From: Oscillospiraceae bacterium | GTDB lineage: Bacteria > Bacillota > Clostridia > Oscillospirales > CAG-272 | DNA: 38,686 nt | Direction of reading: 5' to 3' | Assembly: GCA_015063455.1 (NCBI GenBank) | Contig: SVUC01000006.1 | Span: 1 to 38,686 of the forward strand | Shown here: positions 4,696-38,067 of the stretch, piece by piece | Position numbering within the stretch: the stretch's first letter is position 1 | Layout of the letters: every line of letters starts with the position of its first letter | Notes under the pieces: generated by a model | The model's input: the letters and a program-made list of their open reading frames with translations, nothing else | The model's database searches: none | Told to the model about the DNA's origin: nothing | Made by a program: the position numbers and the translations under genes

Positions 4696-5859
4696 TCATA
4701 TCATTTCACGATAGCTTCCGAGATATTTGAATTCTTCACAGCTGTCAGAGAGTGACTGCATAAGTGATGCAAATGATTCGGAATAGACCGAGGTATCAAA
4801 ATCCATAAAGAAGCGGAATTCGAAATCACTTCCTTCGATCGGGCGTGATATAAGCTCGGTTAGGTTTATTCCGAGTGCAAAGAAGCGGGAGAGTACCTTG
4901 TAGAGCGCTCCGGGAGAGTTGCTCGTAACAAGCATAAGAGATGTTTTATCAGCTCCGGGATAGATCTCAATGTTCTTGGAAACGCAAAGGAAACGGGTGT
5001 AATTGTTGTCTGAGTTCTGGATATTGCGCGCGAGACTCTCGAGATTGTAGAGACCTGCACAGGAACGTGAAGAAATTGCGGCAATGTCGTGTCTTCCCGA
5101 TTCGTGTACGAGGCGTGCTGCAACAGCTGTGTTCGCGGCGTATGTAACCTTTACTCCGGGTAGTTTTTCAATGAATTTGCTGCACTGATTGATCGCCTGC
5201 TCATGCGAGATGATCTCTTTGATATCCTCGAGCTTTGTGCCCGGGTTAGCAAGGAGTGAATGCTCGATCTTACAGCGTACTGAGCGCACAACATATACAT
5301 TGTACTTCTCGAGGAGCTTATATACGGCTGTCACACTGCCCGCAGTGCTGTTTTCGATCGGGAGAACGCCGTACTTCACATAACCGTTCTCAACGGCTCT
5401 GATGACGTCCTCGAACGTCTTGACGTATTCGATATCGGGGGACTTGAAAAGCTTTTCGGCTGCAGTCATAGAGTTGGCGCCCTCGGTACCCTGGCAGGCA
5501 ACGTGCGCTTTTTCGGGGAACAGACTCGGAGTGGATTCAATTGCAGAGGTGATCCTGTCATAAAGATCTGACTTCTGTCCGAGCAGCTTGTTCTGATAAT
5601 CTCTTGAGAGTTCAAAGAGGAGAGAATACATCTGACGGGTGTATCCTGACATTTCTTCTGCGGCAAGGGAGGACACCTTGTTCAGCTTGTCTCTTTCGCG
5701 TGCTGCGTCGAAAACAGGCATTCCGCTGTCTTTTTTGTATCCTGCGATCTTCGCAGCAATTTCCATACGCTTTCCAAGAAGCTCAACGAGCTGGTTGTCG
5801 ACTTCGTCGATCTCGTTGCGGTATGAAATAAGTCTTTCTTTGTCAATATATTCTGCCAT
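4696..5859 (-). CDS. pheA: Bifunctional chorismate mutase / prephenate dehydratase
   Basis: This 387-residue enzyme converts chorismate to prephenate and then to phenylpyruvate in phenylalanine synthesis. Residues 1-95 are an AroQ-type chorismate mutase (IDEVDNQLVELLGKR). Residues 118-295 are prephenate dehydratase, with the CQGTEGANS nucleotide-loop-like motif and the conserved TRF (288-290). Residues 305-387 are a regulatory ACT domain with GAL at 317-319. At the usual phenylalanine-binding ESRP position it reads ISRP (337-340), which may alter feedback control. The reading frame is open further upstream, but the start chosen at 5859 has AAGGA 8 bases before it and does not overlap lplA. 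It is the last gene of the minus-strand run. Confidence 0.95.
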   Translation of the reverse strand: MAEYIDKERLISYRNEIDEVDNQLVELLGKRMEIAAKIAGYKKDSGMPVFDAARERDKLNKVSSLAAEEMSGYTRQMYSLLFELSRDYQNKLLGQKSDLYDRITSAIESTPSLFPEKAHVACQGTEGANSMTAAEKLFKSPDIEYVKTFEDVIRAVENGYVKYGVLPIENSTAGSVTAVYKLLEKYNVYVVRSVRCKIEHSLLANPGTKLEDIKEIISHEQAINQCSKFIEKLPGVKVTYAANTAVAARLVHESGRHDIAAISSRSCAGLYNLESLARNIQNSDNNYTRFLCVSKNIEIYPGADKTSLMLVTSNSPGALYKVLSRFFALGINLTELISRPIEGSDFEFRFFMDFDTSVYSESFASLMQSLSDSCEEFKYLGSYREMI

Positions 5860-5893
5860 TTTTGTGTTCCTTTGATTATGAATGTAGAGAATT

Positions 5894-6871
5894 TTATTCA
5901 AATAAACCGATTGCAAGATCGTGCGGTGTAGTTCTGAAAAGGTTTGAGGATATAGAGTCAAACGCCGCTTCAACGGCTGAGGGGGTGTATTCGCATCCCA
6001 CCAGAACATTTACTATATCATCAGGCGAGAGATTTGCGAAAAAATCTCCCGAAACCGAAGCCGATTCGATTTTACCGCCGCGGACCGTAAAAGTGAAATC
6101 AAATTCACCGCCTGAGGTGTGAATGGTTTTTTCGATCTCAAATTTTGGGGATGCGGCGAAGACTATCTTTTCGTCATCGAATTTTTCATTTGATATCTGC
6201 CTTATTCTGATGTCGTCGTCACGGCTTATCTCGTAACTGTCCGAGCAGATCGTTTTTGCAATGTGCTCTTTCAGCTCATCCGGCGTCATCGGGAATTGCA
6301 GATGCTCGCTGAGATTTGTGACACGCTCTCTTACCGATTTGATCGCCTTGGATGTTATCTTATAATCTTTTGGGGTCGTTGATCGCACGATTTCTTCGAG
6401 ATCGGAATCAAGCAGAAGAGTACCGTGGTGCACCACAGCTCCGCCTGCACGGTATTGCGCGTTTCCGCTGATCTTTCTGCCGTCGATCATAATATCATTT
6501 CTTCCGCTGAGCTCAGCTTTTACCCCGAGAAGAGAGAGAGAGTCAATTATCGGACGGACAAATTTTTCAAAATTTATCTCCTGTTTTGTCTCTGGAGAGA
6601 TAAAAGTAAACATCAAATTTTTTTCATCCGAGTAGATAGTACCGCCGCCTGACAACCTGCGCGCAAGGGTAATTCCTTTTTCTCTGACGTGCGGAAGATT
6701 GACTTCTTCAAAAAGGTTCTGAAAACGACCGATTATTATTGTCGGAGTGGTTTTCCAGAGCATAAAAATGTCACTGTTTTCTGCACCGTCAATTTTTTTC
6801 TCGGCTGCAAAGTAGTATTCTGCTGCAAGATTATAGTAAATATCGGATGATTTTGTATCAATATAGATCAT
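5894..6871 (-). CDS. lplA: Lipoate-protein ligase
   Basis: This 325-residue cytoplasmic enzyme activates lipoate with ATP and attaches it to lipoyl domains. It matches the LplA family: RRLSGGGTIYSD at 71-82 is the signature RRxSGGGxVxxD loop, Lys133 in GRKISGNAQ matches the conserved catalytic lysine, and VVHHGTLLL at 146-154 follows. The C-terminal accessory domain runs from about 245 to the end. The start codon overlaps the stop of the upstream membrane-protein gene as ATGA, which indicates translational coupling. No lipoylated enzyme is encoded in the window, so the substrate protein is elsewhere (a GcvH or 2-oxoacid dehydrogenase E2 would be expected). Confidence 0.93.
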   Translation of the reverse strand: MIYIDTKSSDIYYNLAAEYYFAAEKKIDGAENSDIFMLWKTTPTIIIGRFQNLFEEVNLPHVREKGITLARRLSGGGTIYSDEKNLMFTFISPETKQEINFEKFVRPIIDSLSLLGVKAELSGRNDIMIDGRKISGNAQYRAGGAVVHHGTLLLDSDLEEIVRSTTPKDYKITSKAIKSVRERVTNLSEHLQFPMTPDELKEHIAKTICSDSYEISRDDDIRIRQISNEKFDDEKIVFAASPKFEIEKTIHTSGGEFDFTFTVRGGKIESASVSGDFFANLSPDDIVNVLVGCEYTPSAVEAAFDSISSNLFRTTPHDLAIGLFE

Positions 6872-7227
6872 GATTTTTTATTCAGTTCTCTGTGATAGAC
6901 GAAATACGATATTGCATAGACGATATATGCGGTGATGAATCCGACGGGAAGATTCAACAGGCTGTTTGTGTGGTCGATAAGCATTTGGATAAGAATAATT
7001 ATCCAAGGGATAACGCCAACGATAAGACCGCATGGCAGAGCTTTTTTGATACACAACAGAATACCGCTGGTGATAGATATAAGCACCCACAGCCACGCAT
7101 ACCACGGGGTATTCACTATCACGTGGACTATGTATGGTGAGCTGATTTGTGTATCTAGTGCGGCAAGAGCAAAAATGAGAAAAATAACAAATGCTGCCGG
7201 AATGAAGCCGATGGTTTTTCTTATCAT
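6868..7227 (-). CDS. Small four-helix membrane protein of unknown function
   Basis: This 119-residue hydrophobic protein has about four membrane segments: FIPAAFVIFLIFALAAL, WYAWLWVLISITSGILL, CGLIVGVIPWIIILIQML and PVGFITAYIVYAISYFV. A start 18 bases upstream is possible, but the ATG at 7227 is preferred because GGGAGG lies 7 bases before it. It sits between tgt and lplA and overlaps lplA by 4 bases. I recognise no family. The genetic coupling to lplA may be incidental. Confidence 0.8.
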   Translation of the reverse strand: MIRKTIGFIPAAFVIFLIFALAALDTQISSPYIVHVIVNTPWYAWLWVLISITSGILLCIKKALPCGLIVGVIPWIIILIQMLIDHTNSLLNLPVGFITAYIVYAISYFVYHRELNKKS

Positions 7228-7262
7228 TTGTGAACCTCCCATCAATACTGTAGATTGATTGA

Positions 7263-8405
7263 TCAGTCGGGACGTCTCTCGCCGAGAACTATGCGGTATT
7301 TCTGATAGAAGCTTTCGTAATAGCCGCCGTCGAGTGCATCGCGGATCTTCTGCATAAGATCATTGTAGAAATAGAGGTTGTGCAGAACTGCGAGACGCAT
7401 TCCGAGCGCTTCTTTTGCCTTGATGAGATGGCGGATATATGCGCGCGAATGATTACGGCACGCAGGACAGCCGCAGTTCTCGTCGATCGGACGCGGGTCG
7501 TTCATATATTTTTCGTTGAGGAGATTCATCTTACCGTGCCATGTGAAGAGGTTGCCGTGACGTGCGTTACGGGAAGGCATTACGCAGTCGAAGAAGTCAA
7601 CGCCTCTGTGAACTGCCTCTACGATGTTCTGAGGAGTTCCGACACCCATAAGGTATCTCGGCTTCTCAGTTGGCATATACGGCTCAACAGCCTCGATAAT
7701 GCGGTACATTTCTTCGGTTTCTTCACCGACAGCAAGACCGCCGATCGCATAACCGTCGGTGTCAAGCTCGCGGATCTGCTCCATATGACGAATTCTGAGA
7801 TCAGCATAAGTGCTTCCCTGGTTGATACCGAAGAGAAGCTGACCGGGATTTATCGTTTCTTCAAGCTGAGAGAGACGGTAGAGCTCTTCCTTGCATCTTC
7901 TGAGCCAACGGGTAGTACGGTCACAGGAATTTCTTGTGTAATTGTATTCGGCGGGATTCTCAATGCATTCATCAAACGCCATAGCGATCGTAGAGCCGAG
8001 ATTTGACTGAATACGCATACTTTCCTCAGGTCCCATGAAGATACGTTTGCCGTCAATGTGAGAAGCAAAATAAACGCCTTCTTCCTTGATCTTTCTTAAG
8101 CTTGCAAGGGAGAATACCTGGAATCCGCCGCTGTCTGTGAGAGTGGGACGATCCCAGCCTGTGAACTTCTGAAGTCCACCCTGATCGTGTACAAGTCTGT
8201 CGCCGGGGCGGATGTGAAGGTGATATGTGTTAGAAAGCATTACCTGACAGTTTACGTCCTTGAGGTCGTAAGCGGATACACCGCCCTTGATAGCGGCACA
8301 GGTAGCTACGTTCATAAATACGGGAGTTTCTATTACACCGTGAGGTGTGACGAGACGACCGCGTCTTGCGCGGCTGTGTTCATCTTTTGCGAGTATTGTA
8401 AACAT
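7263..8405 (-). CDS. tgt: Queuine/preQ1 tRNA-guanine transglycosylase
   Basis: This 380-residue enzyme swaps guanine-34 of GUN-anticodon tRNAs for preQ1 in queuosine synthesis. Two of its substrates, tRNA-Asp(GTC) and potentially the other GUN tRNAs, depend on it. It has the full bacterial Tgt pattern: Asp91 in DSGGFQVFS as general base, nucleophile Asp273 in FFDCVMPSRNARHG, and a zinc site of Cys311, Cys313, Cys316 and His342. The start follows AAGGAG at an 8-base spacing. The gene is downstream of mutL, and 74 bases separate them. Confidence 0.97.
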   Translation of the reverse strand: MFTILAKDEHSRARRGRLVTPHGVIETPVFMNVATCAAIKGGVSAYDLKDVNCQVMLSNTYHLHIRPGDRLVHDQGGLQKFTGWDRPTLTDSGGFQVFSLASLRKIKEEGVYFASHIDGKRIFMGPEESMRIQSNLGSTIAMAFDECIENPAEYNYTRNSCDRTTRWLRRCKEELYRLSQLEETINPGQLLFGINQGSTYADLRIRHMEQIRELDTDGYAIGGLAVGEETEEMYRIIEAVEPYMPTEKPRYLMGVGTPQNIVEAVHRGVDFFDCVMPSRNARHGNLFTWHGKMNLLNEKYMNDPRPIDENCGCPACRNHSRAYIRHLIKAKEALGMRLAVLHNLYFYNDLMQKIRDALDGGYYESFYQKYRIVLGERRPD

Positions 8406-8444
8406 TTATTGTTCTCCTTGAATTAGGGTGGAATTGCTTGTTTT

Positions 8445-8462
8445 TGCAAATTGACGATCAAT
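8445..8462 (-). repeat. Echo of the mutL 3' end in the mutL-tgt gap
   Basis: Eighteen bases here match the last coding part of mutL (8492-8509) with two differences. Read on the minus strand, both encode IDRQFA and both differences are silent third-position changes. After this copy the frame stays open for another dozen codons and ends at tgt. It looks like a leftover of a duplicated or displaced mutL tail. Confidence 0.5.
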
Positions 8463-8479
8463 TCATGCATACTTAATTT

Positions 8480-10693
8480 TTAAGTTAATCTTGCGAATTG
8501 ACGGTCAATCGCAGATTTTTTGATTTCAAATGCCACAGGTCTGCCGTGCGGACAGGTACGGATCACCTGATTGTCCTCACCGGGCTTTTTCAGCAGCCTG
8601 TCACAGATCCATTTGATGTGCGCGCGATCGTATATTCTGCCGCCTTTGATTGCAGCCTTGCAGGACGCCTGCCAAAGCCTTGTTTCAAAGAATCCTTCAG
8701 CAGCAGACTCAACACTTGCGCCGACCTCTGACAGCTTTGAGATCAAAGTTGTAAACAGATCGATAGATGCATCACGTTCAAGCTGCTCGGGTATCTGGAC
8801 GATACTTGCTGTGTACGTTGAGATCGTTTTCTTTTCGATCGTGTAATCGAAGCCGAGAGCCTTGATCTTGTCCTCGTAATCGGATATCGCTTCTGCTTCT
8901 GTTGCAAGCACGTCGATCTCGATCGGTGAGAAGAGAAGCTGACCGCCTATTTTATCTCCTCTGTTTTTGAGATTTGCGCGCATCTTGCGAGAAAGTTCGT
9001 CAAAAATGATACGCTCGTGTGCCGCGTGCTTGTCGATCATAAGAAGTCTCTCGTCGATCTGAACGAGAACATAGCAGTTGAATGCTTCACCGATGATCAA
9101 ATATTCCGGAATTTCCGACGGGTCGATCTCACCGCTGTATATTTCTTCTTCCTTGTCTTCTGTTTCGTTAATACTGATCTGCGGCTCAGGCGTGTTTTCG
9201 TGAGTTTGTTCCGCTGATTCCGAGGGTAGAGATGCCACAGGAGCATAAGAGTCTCTCACATTCGGAATTTCATTTTCTGCCATTGAGATAGCTGCACGTT
9301 CTGCCTCAAGCCGAGCTTCTTCAGCTGCAATAAGAGCATCGCGCTCTGCTGATCTTGCTTTTTCAGCCTCTTCTGCCTCAAGATCGGAAACTGTAACATA
9401 AGACGGAACATATTCGGATGCACGTCTGATGTTTTCAGCTGCACGTCGGTTAGCCTCTGCAAGCTCAGCTTCGGTTTTTCCTTCAGTCGACGCAGCCTCA
9501 AATTTCAGCTTCGGGGAAGATCTGGTCGAATCGTTTATTGTTTTGATCTCGGGAACAATGTCAGACAGACGTATCTGATCTGCTTTTTTTGTTCTCTCGT
9601 CAAGCGGCTTGAATGCGCCGTACAGCTGAGATGCAGTCATTCCGGATGGTTTGGAAGACGGGGACTTCTTTGCTGCCTGAGGGAACTGCAGCTCGGGACG
9701 CTTTGCTTCAGCTTCAAGAGCAGAGAGTGTGGCGTAATAAACTGCATCGTAGATCAATTTTTCGTTGGCGAATTTCACCTCAAGCTTCGCGGGATGTACG
9801 TTTACATCAACGGCTTGCGGCGGAAGTTCAATGTTGAGAACACAGAACGGGAACTTTTCAGCAGGAATTTTTGAAGAATATGCCTGTTCAAGAGCCGCCG
9901 AGGCGGTTTTTGACTTGATATATCTTCCGTTGATGAAGAAATTCTCCATATTTCTGTTGGAGCGGTAGAGATCGGGCTCTGAGACAAATCCTGTGATGCG
10001 GATCCCGTTTTCTTCTCGGTCAACCTTGAGCGAACGCTTTGCGGTTTCTTTGCCGAAGAGTGCCCATATCGTCTCCGAGAGATCACAGTTTCCCGATGTC
10101 ATAAACTTGATCTCACCGTCACTTATGTATTTGAAAGAAATATCAGAACGCGAGAGCGCGATCTTTTCAACAACAGCACCTATCGCCGTCGATTCTGTCG
10201 AATCTTTTTTGAGGAATTTACGGCGTGCGGGAACATTGTAGAAAAGATCCTCGACGATTACAGTTGTGCCGTCCTGGCATCCTACGTCGATGACAGATTC
10301 TACTTTACCGCCGTTTGCCGTGAGTACAGCCCCGAGAGGCTGACCTTTTACTTTGGAGAAGATCCTCAGCTTTGATACCGATGCGATAGCCGCAAGAGCT
10401 TCACCGCGGAAGCCGAGGGTGAAAATAGAGTCAAGATCCTCAACATTTTTTATTTTACTCGTTGAGTGACGTTTTATAGCCGCCTCAAGATCGTCCTTTT
10501 CGATACCGCATCCGTTGTCGGCTACTCTGATAAACGATACCCCGCCGCGCTGGACTTCAATAGTTATCTTGTCAGCACCGGAGTCGATTGCATTTTCGAG
10601 GAGCTCTTTCACAGCAGAGGCAGGACGGTCAACGACTTCGCCTGCCGCTATGAGATTGGCAACCTCAAAGCTTAACAGATTAATTTTTCCCAT
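8480..10693 (-). CDS. mutL: DNA mismatch repair protein MutL
   Basis: This 737-residue protein couples MutS mismatch recognition to strand incision. The N-terminal GHKL ATPase has ELLENAIDSGAD, DNGCGI and LGFRGEAL motifs. The C-terminal endonuclease domain carries DKHAAHERIIFDE, matching the DQHAxxExxxxE metal site, and CPHGRP, so it should be an incision-competent MutL rather than the E. coli type. The linker, about residues 350-540, is unusually long and rich in Ala, Glu and Arg with probable coiled coil, making it about 100 residues longer than common MutL. It lies 12 bases after mutS, has no obvious ribosome binding site, and is probably translated by coupling. Confidence 0.97.
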   Translation of the reverse strand: MGKINLLSFEVANLIAAGEVVDRPASAVKELLENAIDSGADKITIEVQRGGVSFIRVADNGCGIEKDDLEAAIKRHSTSKIKNVEDLDSIFTLGFRGEALAAIASVSKLRIFSKVKGQPLGAVLTANGGKVESVIDVGCQDGTTVIVEDLFYNVPARRKFLKKDSTESTAIGAVVEKIALSRSDISFKYISDGEIKFMTSGNCDLSETIWALFGKETAKRSLKVDREENGIRITGFVSEPDLYRSNRNMENFFINGRYIKSKTASAALEQAYSSKIPAEKFPFCVLNIELPPQAVDVNVHPAKLEVKFANEKLIYDAVYYATLSALEAEAKRPELQFPQAAKKSPSSKPSGMTASQLYGAFKPLDERTKKADQIRLSDIVPEIKTINDSTRSSPKLKFEAASTEGKTEAELAEANRRAAENIRRASEYVPSYVTVSDLEAEEAEKARSAERDALIAAEEARLEAERAAISMAENEIPNVRDSYAPVASLPSESAEQTHENTPEPQISINETEDKEEEIYSGEIDPSEIPEYLIIGEAFNCYVLVQIDERLLMIDKHAAHERIIFDELSRKMRANLKNRGDKIGGQLLFSPIEIDVLATEAEAISDYEDKIKALGFDYTIEKKTISTYTASIVQIPEQLERDASIDLFTTLISKLSEVGASVESAAEGFFETRLWQASCKAAIKGGRIYDRAHIKWICDRLLKKPGEDNQVIRTCPHGRPVAFEIKKSAIDRQFARLT

Positions 10694-10705
10694 ATCAGTT
10701 TATTT

Positions 10706-13291
10706 TTATAATAATTTTTTCCATTCGTAGATTAAATTCAGGGCTTCAATGGGGGTTAGTGTATTGATGTCAGTCTTTTTCAGAGCTTCTTTTATTTCGT
10801 CTGCCGCAAAGTCAGCAAAGCTGAGAGTCATCGGCATATCGTCAGGCTCCGAATTATGCGCGATTTTTGCTTTTTTCTTCGGCTGCTTTCCTTCGAGCGT
10901 CGCAAGAATATCTTTTGCGCGGCGTGTGATCTCGCCCGGAACTCCTGCAAGACGTGCGACCTCGATACCATAGCTGTCGTCAGCAGGCCCACGCACGATC
11001 TTTCTGAGGAAGGTTACATCCTCGCCTCTCTTTTTGGCGGCGATGTTGTAGTTTACAATTCCGTCGATCTCACCTTCAAGTGAAGTCAGCTCGTGATAAT
11101 GCGTAGCAAACATTGTTTTTGCACCGATCTTTTTGCCGACAGTGTATTCAGCGACAGCACGTGCTATGCTCATTCCGTCATATGTAGACGTTCCGCGGCC
11201 GATCTCGTCGTAAACGATAAAACTTCGGCTTGTGGCATTTGAGAGGATGTACGCTACCTCTTTCATCTCAAGCATAAATGTTGATTGACCTGATGCCAAG
11301 TCATCAGATGCGCCGACACGGGTAAAGAGCTTGTCCACAATACCGATTCTCGCGGATGTTGCGGGGACAAACGATCCGATCTGCGCCATGAGAATGATGA
11401 GCGCGGTCTGGCGCATATATGTCGATTTACCTGCCATATTCGGACCTGTGATCAGCATAAGGCAGTTGTCCTTGGTGTCAAGATAAGCGTCATTCGGAAC
11501 GAAATATGAGTCCGGTGCAAACTTTTCTACAACGGGGTGACGTCCGTTTTTGATATCAATGATGTCACTGCAGTCAACCTCGGGACAGACGTAAGAGTTC
11601 TGCGATGCCGATTCCGCGAGGGAGATGAATACGTCGAGGATCGCAAGTGCCTGTGCTGAGCGTCTGATTCGCACAGATTCACATTCGACAGCGTCTCTGA
11701 TTGCAACAAACATATCGTACTCGAGAGCCTTCAGCTTGTCGTCAGCTCCGAGAATCGTAGCTTCCATATCCTTCAGCTCATCGGTAATGTATCTTTCTTT
11801 GTCGGAGAGAGTCTGCTTTCTGACATAAGTATCGGGAACAAGCTCGGCCTGAGAACGAGGAGCTTCGATATAGTAACCGAACACTCTGTTGTAACCGATC
11901 TTGAGATTTTTTATCCCTGTTTTTTCTCTCTCGTTAGCTTCGGCGGTCTTGATCCATTCTTTACCGTTCGACATTATGTAGCGAAGATTGTCAACATCCT
12001 CGTTATAGCCGGATTTGATAATACCTCCCTCGCGGATCATAAACGGCGGATTTTCTTCGATCGAGTCGTCGATCAGCTCGTACACATCTCTGAGCTCGTC
12101 GAGCTGAGAGAAAATATCAGCGAGTGCACCGCTTTTTATGTCGGAGAGAAGACGTTTTACGTCGGGAATGATCTTGATGGTCTGAGCGATTGCTCTGAGA
12201 TCTCGCCCACCTGCCGTTCCGTAGGAGACCTTTGTGACAAGTCGTTCGAGGTCAAGAACGGATGAGAGAATTTCTCTGAGCTCCTCTCGAAGAATAAAGT
12301 TGTCGCACAATTCCCCTACCGCGTGCTGACGGTTCAAAATCTCAGACGCGTTTGTCAGGGGATGCTCGATCCACTGCTTGAGAAGACGTGCTCCCATTGA
12401 CGAGCTTGTTTTGTCAAGCACCCAAAGGAGAGAGCCTTTTTTCTCTTTGGTGAGCATTGTTTCGCAAAGCTCGAGGTTACGTCTTGTTGACACGTCCATT
12501 TCGAGAAATGCGGATGAATCGTAAAACGATATTTTTTTGATGTATGAAATATCAGACTTCTGCGTATCGGCAATGTATTTGAGCGCGGCACCTGCTGCTA
12601 TTACTGCAGAACGAGGCTTTCCGGCGATCTCGTCTATGCCGAAATGATTCTCTGTTCTCTCGATAGCACGGTCCGCATCGAAAAAATCAGCGGCAGCTTC
12701 TGTGAGAAGAGAATGAGAGCGAAGCTTGATGTAATTTGCAACCTTGGGCAGAGAACGGGAGGATGTGCTCATGATGATCTCACTCGGAGAATACGTCGAG
12801 AGCTCGTTGATAATATCGTCCTCTGAGAGTCGATCCTTGAACGATGTAGCCGCAAAATATGCTGTGGAAATATCCGCAAAGCACATTCCGATAGATGTTC
12901 CGTCATAATAGATCGCGGCAAGATAGTTGTTTGACTTTTCGTTCAACAGATCCGTTTCGATAAGGGTACCTGGGGTAATGATCCTTACAACTTCACGCTT
13001 GACGAGATTTTTGGTTGTTTTGGGATCTTCAACCTGTTCGCAGATTGCAACCTTGTATCCTTTTTCGATAAGCTTTCCTATGTATGTTTCTGCGGAATGA
13101 TACGGTACTCCGCACATCGGAGCACGTTCTTCCTCGCCGCAGTCGCGGCCTGTGAGAGTGAGATCAAGTTCTGAGGACGCAAGCTGAGCGTCATCGAAGA
13201 ACATCTCGTAAAAGTCCCCGAGTCTGTAAAACAGTATAAAGTCAGGGTATTTATCTTTGATTTCAAAATATTGCTGCATCATCGGGGTCAT
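10706..13291 (-). CDS. mutS: DNA mismatch repair protein MutS
   Basis: This 861-residue protein recognises mismatches and small loops. The N-terminal mismatch-binding motif is present in GDFYEMF (Phe27-x-Glu29), and the ATPase has Walker A GPNMAGKSTYM and Walker B DEIGRGTSTYDG. The C-terminus has a charged linker (KQPKKKAK) and a tail that probably mediates oligomerisation. The start at 13291 follows GAGGTGAT directly; a GTG nine bases upstream is less likely because it overlaps that site. It forms the conserved miaB-ylbF-mutS-mutL order. Confidence 0.98.
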   Translation of the reverse strand: MTPMMQQYFEIKDKYPDFILFYRLGDFYEMFFDDAQLASSELDLTLTGRDCGEEERAPMCGVPYHSAETYIGKLIEKGYKVAICEQVEDPKTTKNLVKREVVRIITPGTLIETDLLNEKSNNYLAAIYYDGTSIGMCFADISTAYFAATSFKDRLSEDDIINELSTYSPSEIIMSTSSRSLPKVANYIKLRSHSLLTEAAADFFDADRAIERTENHFGIDEIAGKPRSAVIAAGAALKYIADTQKSDISYIKKISFYDSSAFLEMDVSTRRNLELCETMLTKEKKGSLLWVLDKTSSSMGARLLKQWIEHPLTNASEILNRQHAVGELCDNFILREELREILSSVLDLERLVTKVSYGTAGGRDLRAIAQTIKIIPDVKRLLSDIKSGALADIFSQLDELRDVYELIDDSIEENPPFMIREGGIIKSGYNEDVDNLRYIMSNGKEWIKTAEANEREKTGIKNLKIGYNRVFGYYIEAPRSQAELVPDTYVRKQTLSDKERYITDELKDMEATILGADDKLKALEYDMFVAIRDAVECESVRIRRSAQALAILDVFISLAESASQNSYVCPEVDCSDIIDIKNGRHPVVEKFAPDSYFVPNDAYLDTKDNCLMLITGPNMAGKSTYMRQTALIILMAQIGSFVPATSARIGIVDKLFTRVGASDDLASGQSTFMLEMKEVAYILSNATSRSFIVYDEIGRGTSTYDGMSIARAVAEYTVGKKIGAKTMFATHYHELTSLEGEIDGIVNYNIAAKKRGEDVTFLRKIVRGPADDSYGIEVARLAGVPGEITRRAKDILATLEGKQPKKKAKIAHNSEPDDMPMTLSFADFAADEIKEALKKTDINTLTPIEALNLIYEWKKLL

Positions 13292-33237: not shown

Positions 33238-33501
33238 ATGCCTAACATTAAAAGCGCAAAAAAGCGTGTAAAAGTTATTTCTGTTAAGACTCTTCAGAAC
33301 AAGATGTTCAAGAGCCAGCTCAAGACAACAGTTAAGAAGTTCTATGCTGCAGTAGAAGGCGGCAACAAGGCTGAAGCTCAGGCTGCTTACACAGAAGCTG
33401 TAAAGATCGTAGACAAGGCTGTTGCAAAGAACATTCTTCACAAGAACAACGCTGCTCACAAGAAGAGCCAGTTCACACACGCCCTCAACAAGATGGCGTA
33501 A
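33238..33501 (+). CDS. rpsT: 30S ribosomal protein S20
   Basis: This 87-residue basic helical protein binds 16S rRNA early in 30S assembly. It opens with MPNIKSAKKRVK, as in the family, and ends with the conserved HKKSQFTHALNKMA. TAGGGAG lies 8 bases before ATG. It is a single-gene unit with promoter and terminator. Confidence 0.97.
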   Translation: MPNIKSAKKRVKVISVKTLQNKMFKSQLKTTVKKFYAAVEGGNKAEAQAAYTEAVKIVDKAVAKNILHKNNAAHKKSQFTHALNKMA

Positions 33502-33571
33502 GCCCAAACGTATCCGATAATTTTATCAGATAAACCGCTGATGGCGATTGACCCGTCGCTTGATGCAAAAA

Positions 33572-33613
33572 ACAAAAGTTAAACAAAACAACAAAAGTCA
33601 ACACAAAAGTCAA
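33572..33613 (+). repeat. Short A-rich direct repeats after rpsT
   Basis: ACAAAAGT followed by T/C-AA occurs three times (33572, 33591, 33603) between the rpsT stop and its terminator. They are simple and untranslated, perhaps replication slippage. Confidence 0.5.
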
Positions 33614-33627
33614 CAAATAACAAAGAT

Positions 33628-33666
33628 TCCCGAACAGGTCAAGCTCCGGCCGGTCGGGATTTTTTG
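33628..33666 (+). terminator. Terminator of rpsT
   Basis: TCCCGA (33628-33633) pairs with TCGGGA (33654-33659) around an inner GC-rich stem and is followed by a T run. A weaker stem lies nearer to the stop at 33510-33531. Confidence 0.75.
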
Positions 33667-33693
33667 ATTTTTTTGAAATTTTTTAATTTTTTC

Positions 33694-33723
33694 TGTAAGA
33701 TTCTGCTGTCATGCCGGTCTTAT
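33694..33723 (+). promoter_or_regulatory. Candidate ECF-type autoregulated promoter
   Basis: TGTAAG (33694-33699) and GTCTTAT (33717-33723) are 17 bases apart and end 19 bases before the start of the sigma gene. This does not resemble sigma-A boxes but fits the general ECF form of a TGTAA-type -35 and a GTC-type -10. Self-regulation is inferred. Confidence 0.45.
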
Positions 33724-33742
33724 AGGTAAAGGGGGGATTTGC

Positions 33743-34237
33743 GTGAAAGAATTTGAAAAGCTTTATGAAGCGTATTTCAGCGATGTTTTCAAATATCTGC
33801 GCTCTCTTGCGAGAGATGAGGATTTGGCGGAAGAGATCACGGCGGAAACGTTCTTTCGCGCAATGAGATCTCTTTCGTCATTCAGAGGAGAGTGTGATGT
33901 AAAGGTGTGGCTTCTCAGAATTGCGAAGAATACATATTTTACTCATCTTTCAAAAAACAAACGTCTCGCAGAGCTTGATCTGTCTTATGAAAATACAGAT
34001 GACGGGAGTATATCTGCAGATGAAGAGCTGATCGAGCGTGAGACTGCAGGAGAGATACTGCGCTCTCTGCACGAGCTTGGAGAGCCGTACAAAGAAGTGT
34101 TTATGCTTCGGGTCTATGCGGAGCTGAGCTTTTCTCAGATCGGAGATGTGTTCTCCAAGAATGAGAACTGGGCGTGCGTAACGTATCACAGAGCAAGAAA
34201 AAAGATTATCGAGAAAATTTCAGAAAAGGAGAGTTGA
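33743..34237 (+). CDS. ECF-type RNA polymerase sigma factor
   Basis: This 164-residue sigma-70 family protein contains region 2 (LYEAYFSDVFKYLRSL, EDLAEEITAETFFRAM, VWLLRIAKNTY) and region 4 (EPYKEVFMLRVYAELSFSQIGDVF, WACVTYHRARKKI). It has no region 3 or 1.1, as in ECF factors. The start is GTG at 33743, preceded by AAGGGGGG. The downstream anti-sigma gene starts one base after its stop, so the two are a coupled pair. Confidence 0.92.
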   Translation: MKEFEKLYEAYFSDVFKYLRSLARDEDLAEEITAETFFRAMRSLSSFRGECDVKVWLLRIAKNTYFTHLSKNKRLAELDLSYENTDDGSISADEELIERETAGEILRSLHELGEPYKEVFMLRVYAELSFSQIGDVFSKNENWACVTYHRARKKIIEKISEKES

Positions 34238-34238
34238 T

Positions 34239-35162
34239 ATGAGAAATATTGAGAACGAATGTGGGATCGTCGAGGACCTTCTCCCTCTTTACACAGAAGA
34301 ATTGGCGGGGGAAGAGTCGGTCAGATTTGTTGAAGCACATCTTAAGGAGTGCGTGTCCTGCAGAGCGGAGTTCGAGAGAATGAAAAAACAAATCGCACAG
34401 GATGAAAAATGCAGAACAATTGACACAGTTCCTCTTGATAAAATGGGGAAGATGATAAAGAAAAATCGGAATCGCAGTGTTCTGCTTTCGGTGCTGATCG
34501 TTACGGCGGTGTTTTTGTCACTCTTCTCGAATATAACCTCTCCGAGATATTTTGACTATTCGGACGGCGTTGTATCGGCATCCGTGACTGATGAGGGCAA
34601 CGTATATCTTTGGTTCAGCGATGAGGTTACATATTGGTCAGTTGATAAGGTAAAAAATGACGAAGGACGTGACTTCTATACTGTGACCGCATCGTATTCC
34701 CTGTACGACAGACTGCTCGGAAGATCAAAAAATTCTAATCTGCACCCGAGCCTGTATCCAACAGATGCCGTGATAAGATCTGATGACGGAGAAGTACCTG
34801 TCGTATATTATGTGCAGAATAATGGTGAGGATGATGTTTGTCTCTGCGGAGATCATTCCGATATCGGAATGGGGAGAACACTCCCGCGGCTTGTTCTCGG
34901 ATATTACTTGCTTGCGGCGACAGGAGTGCTTATCTTCCTTCTTGGGTTGTGTGCTCTGCTGCACAAGAATAAGTCTGCGCTGTCGAGCCTCGTGAATCTG
35001 GCATTAATTCCTGCGTCATATATTGCGGCACATCTTGCTGTAAAGGGATTTGTCAGTGTGACATATTCTGCACTTCACGATTTCATCTATATTGTCATAA
35101 CGGCAGCTGTGATATATGCTGCAGCTGTTGTTATGCTTGGAATAATTCGGGAAAAACGATAA
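34239..35162 (+). CDS. Membrane anti-sigma factor with zinc-finger (ZAS) domain
   Basis: This 307-residue protein begins with a zf-HC2/ZAS module: CGIVEDLLPLYTEELAG and then HLKECVSCRAEF, giving the HxxxCxxC zinc site. One membrane segment near 80-97 is followed by an outer domain of about 110 residues and then about three further segments (about 215-240, 247-265, 280-302). It should hold the ECF sigma factor at the membrane until a signal arrives. The multi-segment C-terminal part is longer than in the simplest anti-sigma factors. The signal is unknown. Confidence 0.88.
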   Translation: MRNIENECGIVEDLLPLYTEELAGEESVRFVEAHLKECVSCRAEFERMKKQIAQDEKCRTIDTVPLDKMGKMIKKNRNRSVLLSVLIVTAVFLSLFSNITSPRYFDYSDGVVSASVTDEGNVYLWFSDEVTYWSVDKVKNDEGRDFYTVTASYSLYDRLLGRSKNSNLHPSLYPTDAVIRSDDGEVPVVYYVQNNGEDDVCLCGDHSDIGMGRTLPRLVLGYYLLAATGVLIFLLGLCALLHKNKSALSSLVNLALIPASYIAAHLAVKGFVSVTYSALHDFIYIVITAAVIYAAAVVMLGIIREKR

Positions 35163-35193
35163 TAAAAAAATAGCTGCAAGGGATCTATTAAAT

Positions 35194-35436
35194 CTAAGTT
35201 AAAAAGCACCCAAGATCAAGAGTATTGGGCTCATTCTCCACAGAAACATCCTGTGTGGGAACATCTGATTCTTCCGTGTCACGATCGGTGTCAACTGCCG
35301 GATGCTCTTCTTCTGATTCGGATGTAGCAGTATCGATCGGCGGTTTTTCTGTGTCATAATAGGGCGGAACTGGATCATTAGGAAAGATTATAAAGGAATC
35401 GTCAATCTTCGGAGAGACCATATTCTCAATATCCAA
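35194..35436 (-). pseudogene. 3' stump of an unidentified minus-strand gene
   Basis: About 80 codons remain, rich in Asp, Glu, Pro, Ser and Thr (for example TATSESEEEHPAVDTD), ending in a stop at 35194. Codon usage looks coding, but there is no ribosome binding site, no credible start, and an in-frame stop lies just upstream. It looks like the disordered C-terminal tail of a larger protein whose 5' part has been lost. The lost end abuts the plus-strand stump at 35456. Confidence 0.55.
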
Positions 35437-35455
35437 GCGCCTAACGGTACACAGG

Positions 35456-35515
35456 CCGAAATGGGAAGATGTCTATAAATCGGAATCATGGGAATACGTC
35501 ATTGATCTTGAGTGA
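35456..35515 (+). pseudogene. 3' stump of a second sialidase-like gene
   Basis: Nineteen codons from PKWEDVYKSESWEYV to the stop match the end of the intact gene at 35627-36904 (IDLE here, IDPE there). By eye 53 of 60 bases agree, and several changes are silent. The homology begins abruptly at 35456. It is the leftover of a former tandem paralog. Confidence 0.85.
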
Positions 35516-35529
35516 ATGCAAATTCGTAC

Positions 35530-35558
35530 TTGTTTTCGCATATGTTACATGATATAAT
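35530..35558 (+). promoter_or_regulatory. Promoter of the sialidase-like gene
   Basis: TTGTTT (35530-35535), a 17-base spacer and TATAAT (35553-35558) with an extended TG lie 69 bases before the start codon. It begins right after the stump of the former paralog. Confidence 0.75.
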
Positions 35559-35626
35559 GTTGGCAGTATCGCGAAAGAAATTTGATCTTCCGATCGTTTT
35601 GAAGTGGAAAATATGAGGGGACAAAA

Positions 35627-36904
35627 ATGAAAATTGAAAAAATTAAAGTAAAAGACGCGGACGAGCGTGGTATCGCACACTTGTACCACAAAAAATATGC
35701 AGAGCCGGAAGGACTTACATTGATCGAGACTCATAAAGTACAGGGAACATCTGATTTTTACGATGCATCCGAAAGACGTATCAGCTATGATAACGGAAGA
35801 ACTTGGGGCGAATGGGAAGAAACTTATAAAGAAGATTTTCAGGCATACGGAGATCATGAGCGTTTGACTGAAAGAATGTGTGAGGCGTGGAATCCCGTCC
35901 ACAGACATCATGTTCGTATAGAGATGGATCGCGTATTTTGCGACGGACACCTGAAAGCATACGAAAAGTTTTGGGGTGGCGCAAAAGAACCTCCTTTTAC
36001 GGATCACACATATGTTGTGGTGGTGCGTGAGGATAAAACAGAAAACAGAACTATGGTCAAATACGAAGAAGGAGAAGATTTTGACCCGAATGATCCGTTG
36101 AAAGAATCATATTTCAAGAGAAATTTTGCGGGCATTACCACAAGCATAATTGTTGATGAGAACGGAGACATTTTCTTCCCCGTCTGTGTCTCGATGAATA
36201 GCTGCTGCAAGATTCTCGGTCTTGATGTTAATACATATTTTCCGGTTATGCCGTATTTTAGCTCGGGAGTTATTGTTTTCCGCGGAGTCTGGAACGGAGA
36301 GAGATACGATATCACTTACTCAAAGCCTATAGTGATATCTGACAGGTTCTCCTCTCGCGGACTGATGGAACCTTCTATAGCTAAGCTGAAGTCCGGAAGA
36401 ATACTTGTTGTATTCCGCGGATCAAACGCGGCAAATCCTGTGTGGAATACTCGAATCGATCCAGGTATGCCCGGCTTTAAGTGGTATGCATTCTCCGAGG
36501 ATAACGGTGAAACCTTCTCAGATCCGTTCCCGTGGCATTACGACACCGGTGAGGTGATCTATTCGTCTTCAACAGTGTCGAGGCTGTTCCGTGATGAGTT
36601 CACAGGTAAGCTCTATTGGATAGGAAACATCACAGGCCCGAACTCTATCGCCAACTTTCCGAGATATCCCCTCAATATATTTGAGGTGGATGAGACATAC
36701 GGATATGCTATCCGCAGCAGTATGATGGAAATTGACACAAAGCACGACGATGAGGCTGACGGTGTTCAGCTTTCAAACTTCGGAATATATCAAGACAGAG
36801 AAACACACAAGATCCATATTACCCTTACCAAACTCGGACAGCTTCCCAAATGGGAAGATGTTTATAAATCGGAATCATGGGAATACATTATTGATCCCGA
36901 ATGA
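35627..36904 (+). CDS. Sialidase-like beta-propeller protein (BNR/Asp-box), no signal peptide
   Basis: This 425-residue protein has sialidase-fold traits: Asp-box motifs SYDNGRTWGEW (about 53-63) and FSEDNGETFSDP (about 292-303), and the EPSIAKLKSGRILVVFRG strand pair typical of BNR six-bladed propellers. A catalytic Arg triad and nucleophile Tyr cannot be assigned with confidence, so it may be a related hydrolase or binding protein. It has no signal peptide, unlike most bacterial sialidases. GAGGGG precedes ATG. A stump of a paralog lies just upstream and a terminator follows. Confidence 0.75.
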   Translation: MKIEKIKVKDADERGIAHLYHKKYAEPEGLTLIETHKVQGTSDFYDASERRISYDNGRTWGEWEETYKEDFQAYGDHERLTERMCEAWNPVHRHHVRIEMDRVFCDGHLKAYEKFWGGAKEPPFTDHTYVVVVREDKTENRTMVKYEEGEDFDPNDPLKESYFKRNFAGITTSIIVDENGDIFFPVCVSMNSCCKILGLDVNTYFPVMPYFSSGVIVFRGVWNGERYDITYSKPIVISDRFSSRGLMEPSIAKLKSGRILVVFRGSNAANPVWNTRIDPGMPGFKWYAFSEDNGETFSDPFPWHYDTGEVIYSSSTVSRLFRDEFTGKLYWIGNITGPNSIANFPRYPLNIFEVDETYGYAIRSSMMEIDTKHDDEADGVQLSNFGIYQDRETHKIHITLTKLGQLPKWEDVYKSESWEYIIDPE

Positions 36905-36957
36905 AAAACTGAGCCGCATATTCACAATCAATCGAATATATTCTCTGGGTAAATCAA

Positions 36958-36983
36958 AAATCCCTCGTTTTTTCGAGGGATTT
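36958..36983 (+). terminator. Terminator of the sialidase-like gene
   Basis: AAATCCCTCG and CGAGGGATTT form a perfect 10-bp stem over six T; it is near-symmetrical and may act in both directions. Confidence 0.88.
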
Positions 36984-37006
36984 AATTTGTGTCAGCCAAT
37001 AAAAAA

Positions 37007-37040
37007 GAGATGTTTGCCTGAAGCAACACCTCTTATTTTT
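37007..37040 (-). terminator. Terminator of mreB
   Basis: On the minus strand AGAGGTG/CATCTCT and TTGC/GCAA pair with one bulged A, followed by TTTTTTATTGG. It lies just past the mreB stop. Confidence 0.8.
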
Positions 37041-37050
37041 TATTTAAAAA

Positions 37051-38067
37051 TTACAGTAATCTCTGACGTGAGATGTTTATCGCACCTTCTGGGATAGCTG
37101 AGAGGTTTTCAAGGCACTTGCCTGTACCGATCGCAACACACGATACCGCTTTGTCTGCAATACGTGTCTTGATACCCGTTGTGTAAGCGATGAGACGGTC
37201 AAGACCGTGCAGCAGGCTTCCGCCTCCTGTCATGACGATACCGTTTGCGAGAATATCACCGATCAGCTCGGGCGGTGTACGTTCAACTACAGAGCATACC
37301 GCCTCAATTACCGATGTGATCGGCTCTTCAAGTGCGTCGGGAATCTCGTCTGATGTGATACGTACTACTCTCGGCAGTCCCTGAATCAGACATCTTCCTT
37401 TAACCTCGATCGAACGAGGCTCTTCTCGCGGCCACGCAGATCCGATCTTTATCTTGATCTCCTCCGCGGTTCTCTCGCCGATGAGGACGTTGTGCTTACG
37501 TCTGACATAACGTATTATTGCTTCATCAAATTTGTCACCCGCAACCTTGATAGATTCGGAGACAACAACTCCGCCGAGGGAGAGAACTGCGATGTCTGTG
37601 GTGCCTCCTCCTATATCGACGATCATTCGTCCCACCGGGGCTGATATATCAATTCCTGCACCGATCGCGGCTGCAACAGGTTCTTCGATAAGATATGTAC
37701 GTCTTGCTCCTGCCTGAGTAGCGGCATCAACAACTGCTCTCTCTTCCACTTCAGTGATTCCCGAGGGAACGCAGATGATAACACGGGGCTTGAATATAAC
37801 CGTTCCGCAAGCTTTTTTTATAAAGTGTGCGATCATTCGGAGCGTGATCTCGTATTGGCTGATAACTCCGTCTCTGAGTGGGCGGATCGCCGTGATGTTT
37901 CCGGGAGTTCTTCCAAGCATAAGCTGAGCTTCACGGCCGAACTTCAGGATCTTATCTGTATTTTTATCGATCGCAACAACGGAAGGCTCTTTGATCACGA
38001 TGCCTTTTCCCTTGACATACACGAGAACCGTAGCGGTTCCGAGGTCAATTCCGATGTCTTTGCTCAT
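37051..38067 (-). CDS. mreB: Rod shape-determining protein MreB/Mbl
   Basis: This 338-residue actin-like ATPase organises lateral cell-wall synthesis. It has phosphate-1 GIDLGTATVLVY, connect-1 region EEPVAAAIGAG, phosphate-2 IVDIGGGTTDIAV and the adenosine motif MTGGGSLLHGL. It is a stand-alone gene without mreC or mreD next to it, which is more like the mbl/mreBH situation, so the exact paralog is uncertain. Its promoter lies at 38146-38174 and its ribosome binding site includes AGGTCAGGA. Confidence 0.95.
   Translation of the reverse strand: MSKDIGIDLGTATVLVYVKGKGIVIKEPSVVAIDKNTDKILKFGREAQLMLGRTPGNITAIRPLRDGVISQYEITLRMIAHFIKKACGTVIFKPRVIICVPSGITEVEERAVVDAATQAGARRTYLIEEPVAAAIGAGIDISAPVGRMIVDIGGGTTDIAVLSLGGVVVSESIKVAGDKFDEAIIRYVRRKHNVLIGERTAEEIKIKIGSAWPREEPRSIEVKGRCLIQGLPRVVRITSDEIPDALEEPITSVIEAVCSVVERTPPELIGDILANGIVMTGGGSLLHGLDRLIAYTTGIKTRIADKAVSCVAIGTGKCLENLSAIPEGAINISRQRLL

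Follow-up and report, generated by a model that had tools for sequence, protein, structure and literature searches.

Fused remnants of an LtaS-type gene and a second sialidase-like gene in the rpsT-mreB interval of an Oscillospiraceae bacterium: a probable scar of gene loss

What are the two short coding pieces that lie back to back at positions 35,194 to 35,515 of contig SVUC01000006.1? The window, i.e., the whole stretch of DNA analysed here (38,686 nucleotides), is this single whole contig, taken from a metagenome-type Oscillospiraceae assembly (2.2 Mb in 154 contigs, 81% complete). A sequence-only reading had proposed two divergent gene 3' ends, both lacking their 5' parts and joined by one deletion. 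The minus-strand frame at 35436-35194 and a plus-strand copy of the neighbouring gene's end are present as described, and neither is a chance match (E 1.1e-15 for the plus-strand piece). Both are remnants and they were probably divergent, but the minus-strand piece comes from inside its gene (residues 203-288 of 708) and is not a 3' end. We put the probability at roughly 70% that the locus is a scar of gene loss within 3.6 kb of accessory DNA, derived from a divergent LtaS-type gene and an upstream sialidase-like copy. The features discussed below are as follows.

33238-33501, plus strand: rpsT
33502-37050, no strand: extra DNA holding the entire scar, about 3.55 kb between the coding ends of rpsT and mreB
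33743-34237, plus strand: ECF-type sigma factor gene (Pfam Sigma70_r2 and Sigma70_r4_2; above the cut-off of NCBIfam sigma70-ECF, below that of the SigM subfamily)
34239-35162, plus strand: probable anti-sigma factor gene (Pfam PF13490 zf-HC2, E 6.8e-07)
35163-35211, no strand: left breakpoint zone without LtaS homology; the minus frame ends here at a fortuitous stop (35194-35196)
35212-35463, minus strand: internal LtaS-type sulfatase fragment, 84 codons (252 bp), both ends lost (tblastn with the G004 protein)
35456-35463, no strand: junction overlap CCGAAATG, 8 bp, read as both LtaS and sialidase (sequence comparison)
35456-35515, plus strand: 3' remnant of a second sialidase-like gene, 19 codons and TGA (61-nt repeat, differences mostly at third positions)
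35530-35558, plus strand: probable promoter of the intact gene, read from sequence (TTGTTT, 17 nt, TATAAT, with TG before the second hexamer)
35627-36904, plus strand: intact sialidase-like (BNR/Asp-box) gene, 425 aa (homologs 38-47% identical; Pfam BNR at sub-threshold scores)
37051-38067, minus strand: mreB

The minus-strand open frame (35436-35194) is 80 aa long from its TTG and 92 codons from stop to stop. With the 80-residue frame as query, one strong relative was found in the genomes of the genus, a 708-aa protein of genome G004 (G004:C76:7985-10111, E 1.6e-14). A tblastn search with this protein aligned its residues 203-288 to 35463-35212 with 50% identity (E 3.9e-18). More distant LtaS homologs match the same FGL..RLDI start at weak E-values. 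The intact G004 relative has five hydrophobic stretches within residues 9-190 and a PF00884 sulfatase domain at residues 327-620 (E 6.1e-22), which is the layout of membrane helices followed by an extracellular sulfatase domain. It scores 78.3 bits against NCBIfam NF053595 (lipoteichoic acid synthase), whose cut-off is 970, and is best described as an LtaS-like sulfatase of putative LtaS identity. Because residues 203-288 fall between the helices and PF00884, the fragment represents the linker between them. It thus descends from a gene with the helices-linker-sulfatase architecture of LtaS-type membrane sulfatases (PF00884; NF053595), but differs from these enzymes in retaining the linker only. 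The differences between the fragment and the G004 gene number 23, 20, and 41 at codon positions 1, 2, and 3; the excess at third positions indicates descent from a functional gene under selection. The dN/dS values are 0.35/0.89 overall and 0.15/1.28 in the first 34 codons. A gene 3' end was ruled out by the homology to a mid-protein linker after which the sulfatase domain is missing: the acidic tail on which that assignment had rested is the acidic LtaS linker, and the frame's stop (35194-35196) falls in non-homologous DNA. The absence of the 5' parts was correctly noted, as LtaS residues before 203 and most sialidase codons are lost. Elsewhere in the window no LtaS piece reached a meaningful score, and none was found in the bacterium's own genome (81% complete) at E 1e-10. 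A second LtaS query, a relative from G239, gave no match in the own genome at E 0.01 in a search run without a positive control. In G004 the LtaS-type gene (7985-10111) is flanked by paralogous genes for large secreted proteins of 755 and 777 aa (5023-7290 and 10239-12572), the starts of which are very similar.

On the plus strand, 35456-35516 repeats 36845-36905, the end of the intact sialidase-like gene and one further base (61 nt, 89% identity, E 1.1e-15 in the own-genome search). Translated in frame, the stump reads PKWEDVYKSESWEYVIDLE-stop and the intact gene PKWEDVYKSESWEYIIDPE-stop, with the stop codon retained; the likeness ends one base past the stop and the two share nothing further downstream. 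Seven nucleotides differ in 60. Five codons differ, three of the five silently and all five at the third position, and dN is 0.04 and dS 0.85 (19 codons, few sites). Since the differences are mainly silent, the stump probably derives from an old paralog that once functioned, and not from new copying of the final 60 bases; recent partial copying from the tail of the intact gene is disfavoured on the same few sites. The existence of a second sialidase-like copy, proposed from the window alone, gains further from relatives with tandem copies. G002, of the same genus, carries head-to-tail sialidase-like arrays, one of seven copies on contig C99 and one of three or more on C72; G314 has such genes in pairs (two copies, head-to-tail), so tandem duplication is usual in this family. 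The array genes of G002 (L021:1-9024 and the L020:378-4555 region) are diverged and their spacers are short.

The intact neighbour encodes a 425-aa protein with the Asp-box motif S-x-DNG-x-T-W (SYDNGRTW and SEDNGETF). Like BNR/Asp-box sialidase-like proteins (PF02012, PF13088), it has the Asp-box and weak profile matches, but it lies under every curated cut-off (BNR, BNR_2); its score with BNR_2 (PF13088) is 13.6 bits against a gathering score of 31.4. A profile search of the PDB touched sialidases at E 0.1. The strongest label warranted by these matches is sialidase-like, as a predicted family only. An AGGGG ribosome-binding motif precedes the start codon. In a consensus promoter scan the TTGTTT/TATAAT pair fell below threshold, the first hexamer matching at three of six positions. 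The gene probably kept its own predicted promoter and ribosome-binding signals. A 20-nt direct repeat (90%) connects 35257-35276 in the LtaS fragment with 35743-35762 at the start of this gene and is probably due to chance.

The two remnants meet directly. About 20 bases had been thought to separate them, but the same minus frame continues upstream of the TTG as HFGLCTVRR (HFGLSTAIR in G004) up to 35463, and this LtaS-homologous stretch, HFGLCTVRRLDIENM in the window and HFGLSTAIRLDIENM in G004, extends 8 bp into the sialidase tail. Within the overlap CCGAAATG, the intact sialidase-like gene and the LtaS gene of G004 share AAATG. The full 8-bp sequence may have been shared by the ancestral genes; AAATG is exact in the present-day relatives. 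In random joins of these two genes, five or more shared bases arose in 0.6% of trials. The presence of a short shared sequence at the join is consistent with a microhomology-mediated deletion between short repeats.

At the other end, LtaS homology stops at 35211/35212, 49 bp past the stop of the anti-sigma gene, and more than 400 codons of the LtaS 3' part are absent. A single deletion had been offered as the explanation of the whole arrangement; with the LtaS 3' part also lost, a second event is needed, with a breakpoint at about 35163-35211, or else the capture of an already short piece. The left breakpoint zone gave no convincing match among the loci compared. The history that we favor would begin with an LtaS-type gene on the minus strand and an upstream sialidase-like copy on the plus strand, arranged divergently. 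A deletion would have taken the 5' part of the LtaS gene (about 200 codons with the membrane helices), the intergenic space, and some 400 codons of the second sialidase-like gene, with rejoining at 5-8 bp of shared sequence (AAATG or CCGAAATG). A second event would then have removed the LtaS 3' part, comprising the end of the linker and the sulfatase domain, and its break would now lie beside the sigma/anti-sigma pair. The leftover 84 LtaS codons and 19 sialidase codons are presumably non-functional. Against the deletion model, the tail comparison covers 19 codons only, and an LtaS fragment without both ends is not the product of one deletion.

If such a pair existed, it might survive intact in relatives, as had been suggested. 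With both proteins as queries, 25 genomes of the genus, 395 genomes of the family, and 79 named loci yielded no intact divergent LtaS/sialidase pair, and no pre-deletion locus for a microhomology-mediated deletion is known from these genomes and loci. In none of the 395 genomes does a sialidase relative at E 1e-30 occur together with an LtaS match at E 1e-40. The single sialidase-like protein as query found nothing in named genomes; an alignment query there found the 79 loci, and neither LtaS nor the sigma pair nor rpsT lies near any of them. The lack of an intact pair counts against the deletion model and favors the main competing explanation, in which the 252-bp LtaS piece, and perhaps the sialidase tail too, was copied into a break in one repair or template-switching event and a divergent pair never stood here. 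Capture would account for an LtaS piece that is bounded on both sides, and it agrees with the separate occurrence of LtaS and sialidase relatives at the thresholds used. Set against this, the own genome (81% complete) contains no donor LtaS gene at E 1e-10, and the mainly silent differences of the tail fit an old functional tandem paralog. We therefore regard capture as unlikely, though deserving of more weight than any other rival, and deletion of a resident pair as the more probable course.

A chimeric assembly, in which the junction unites sequences that lie apart in the cell's DNA, is an idea that a fragmented metagenome-type assembly, of which the window is one contig, naturally raises. 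Assemblers would be expected to need overlaps of at least 20 bases, against the 5-8 bp common to the two pieces; neither the LtaS piece nor, apart from the intact gene, the tail occurs a second time in the genome; and the contig reaches mreB, which in congeners usually neighbours rpsT. We consider an artefact of this kind very improbable. The least credible proposal is that the minus-strand frame constitutes a small, independent functional gene. Although open for 92 codons, the frame corresponds, up to both ends, to the middle of a larger protein, has a TTG at which no ribosome-binding motif is seen as its only start, has no Pfam match, covers just the linker of a membrane enzyme, and closes with non-homologous residues. 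It would be a mistake to annotate the 80-codon frame as a protein, and the case is a caution that a short frame resembling a small acidic protein or a gene end can be the middle of a membrane-enzyme gene.

Under the gene-loss reading preferred here, the stretch is an ordinary scar that matters little in itself. Pseudogenes and gene remnants in intergenic DNA have been described in prokaryotes (e.g., PMC522871, PMC9336565). The pieces in the window are likewise truncated parts of once-functional, here accessory, genes (84 of 708 LtaS codons and 19 of about 425 sialidase-like codons) and are predicted not to be translated. They do not differ in kind from such remnants; here two pieces are fused directly at a short overlap.

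What the scar points to is the rpsT-mreB interval, as a place where accessory genes are gained and lost in this genus. The sigma pair, the scar, and the sialidase-like gene all belong to variable DNA between rpsT and mreB. The gap between the two genes is 3555 bp in the window versus 86-126 bp in four congeners (G004, G012, G024, and G019), in which the genes are convergent. It is conceivable, if doubtful at present, that the interval is a recurrent site of integration and turnover for accessory genes in the genus and that the scar records one cycle of insertion and loss. In eight further genomes the interval measures 1.6-7.1 kb and carries differing cargo, including MATE transporters, XRE-type regulators, and another ECF sigma gene.
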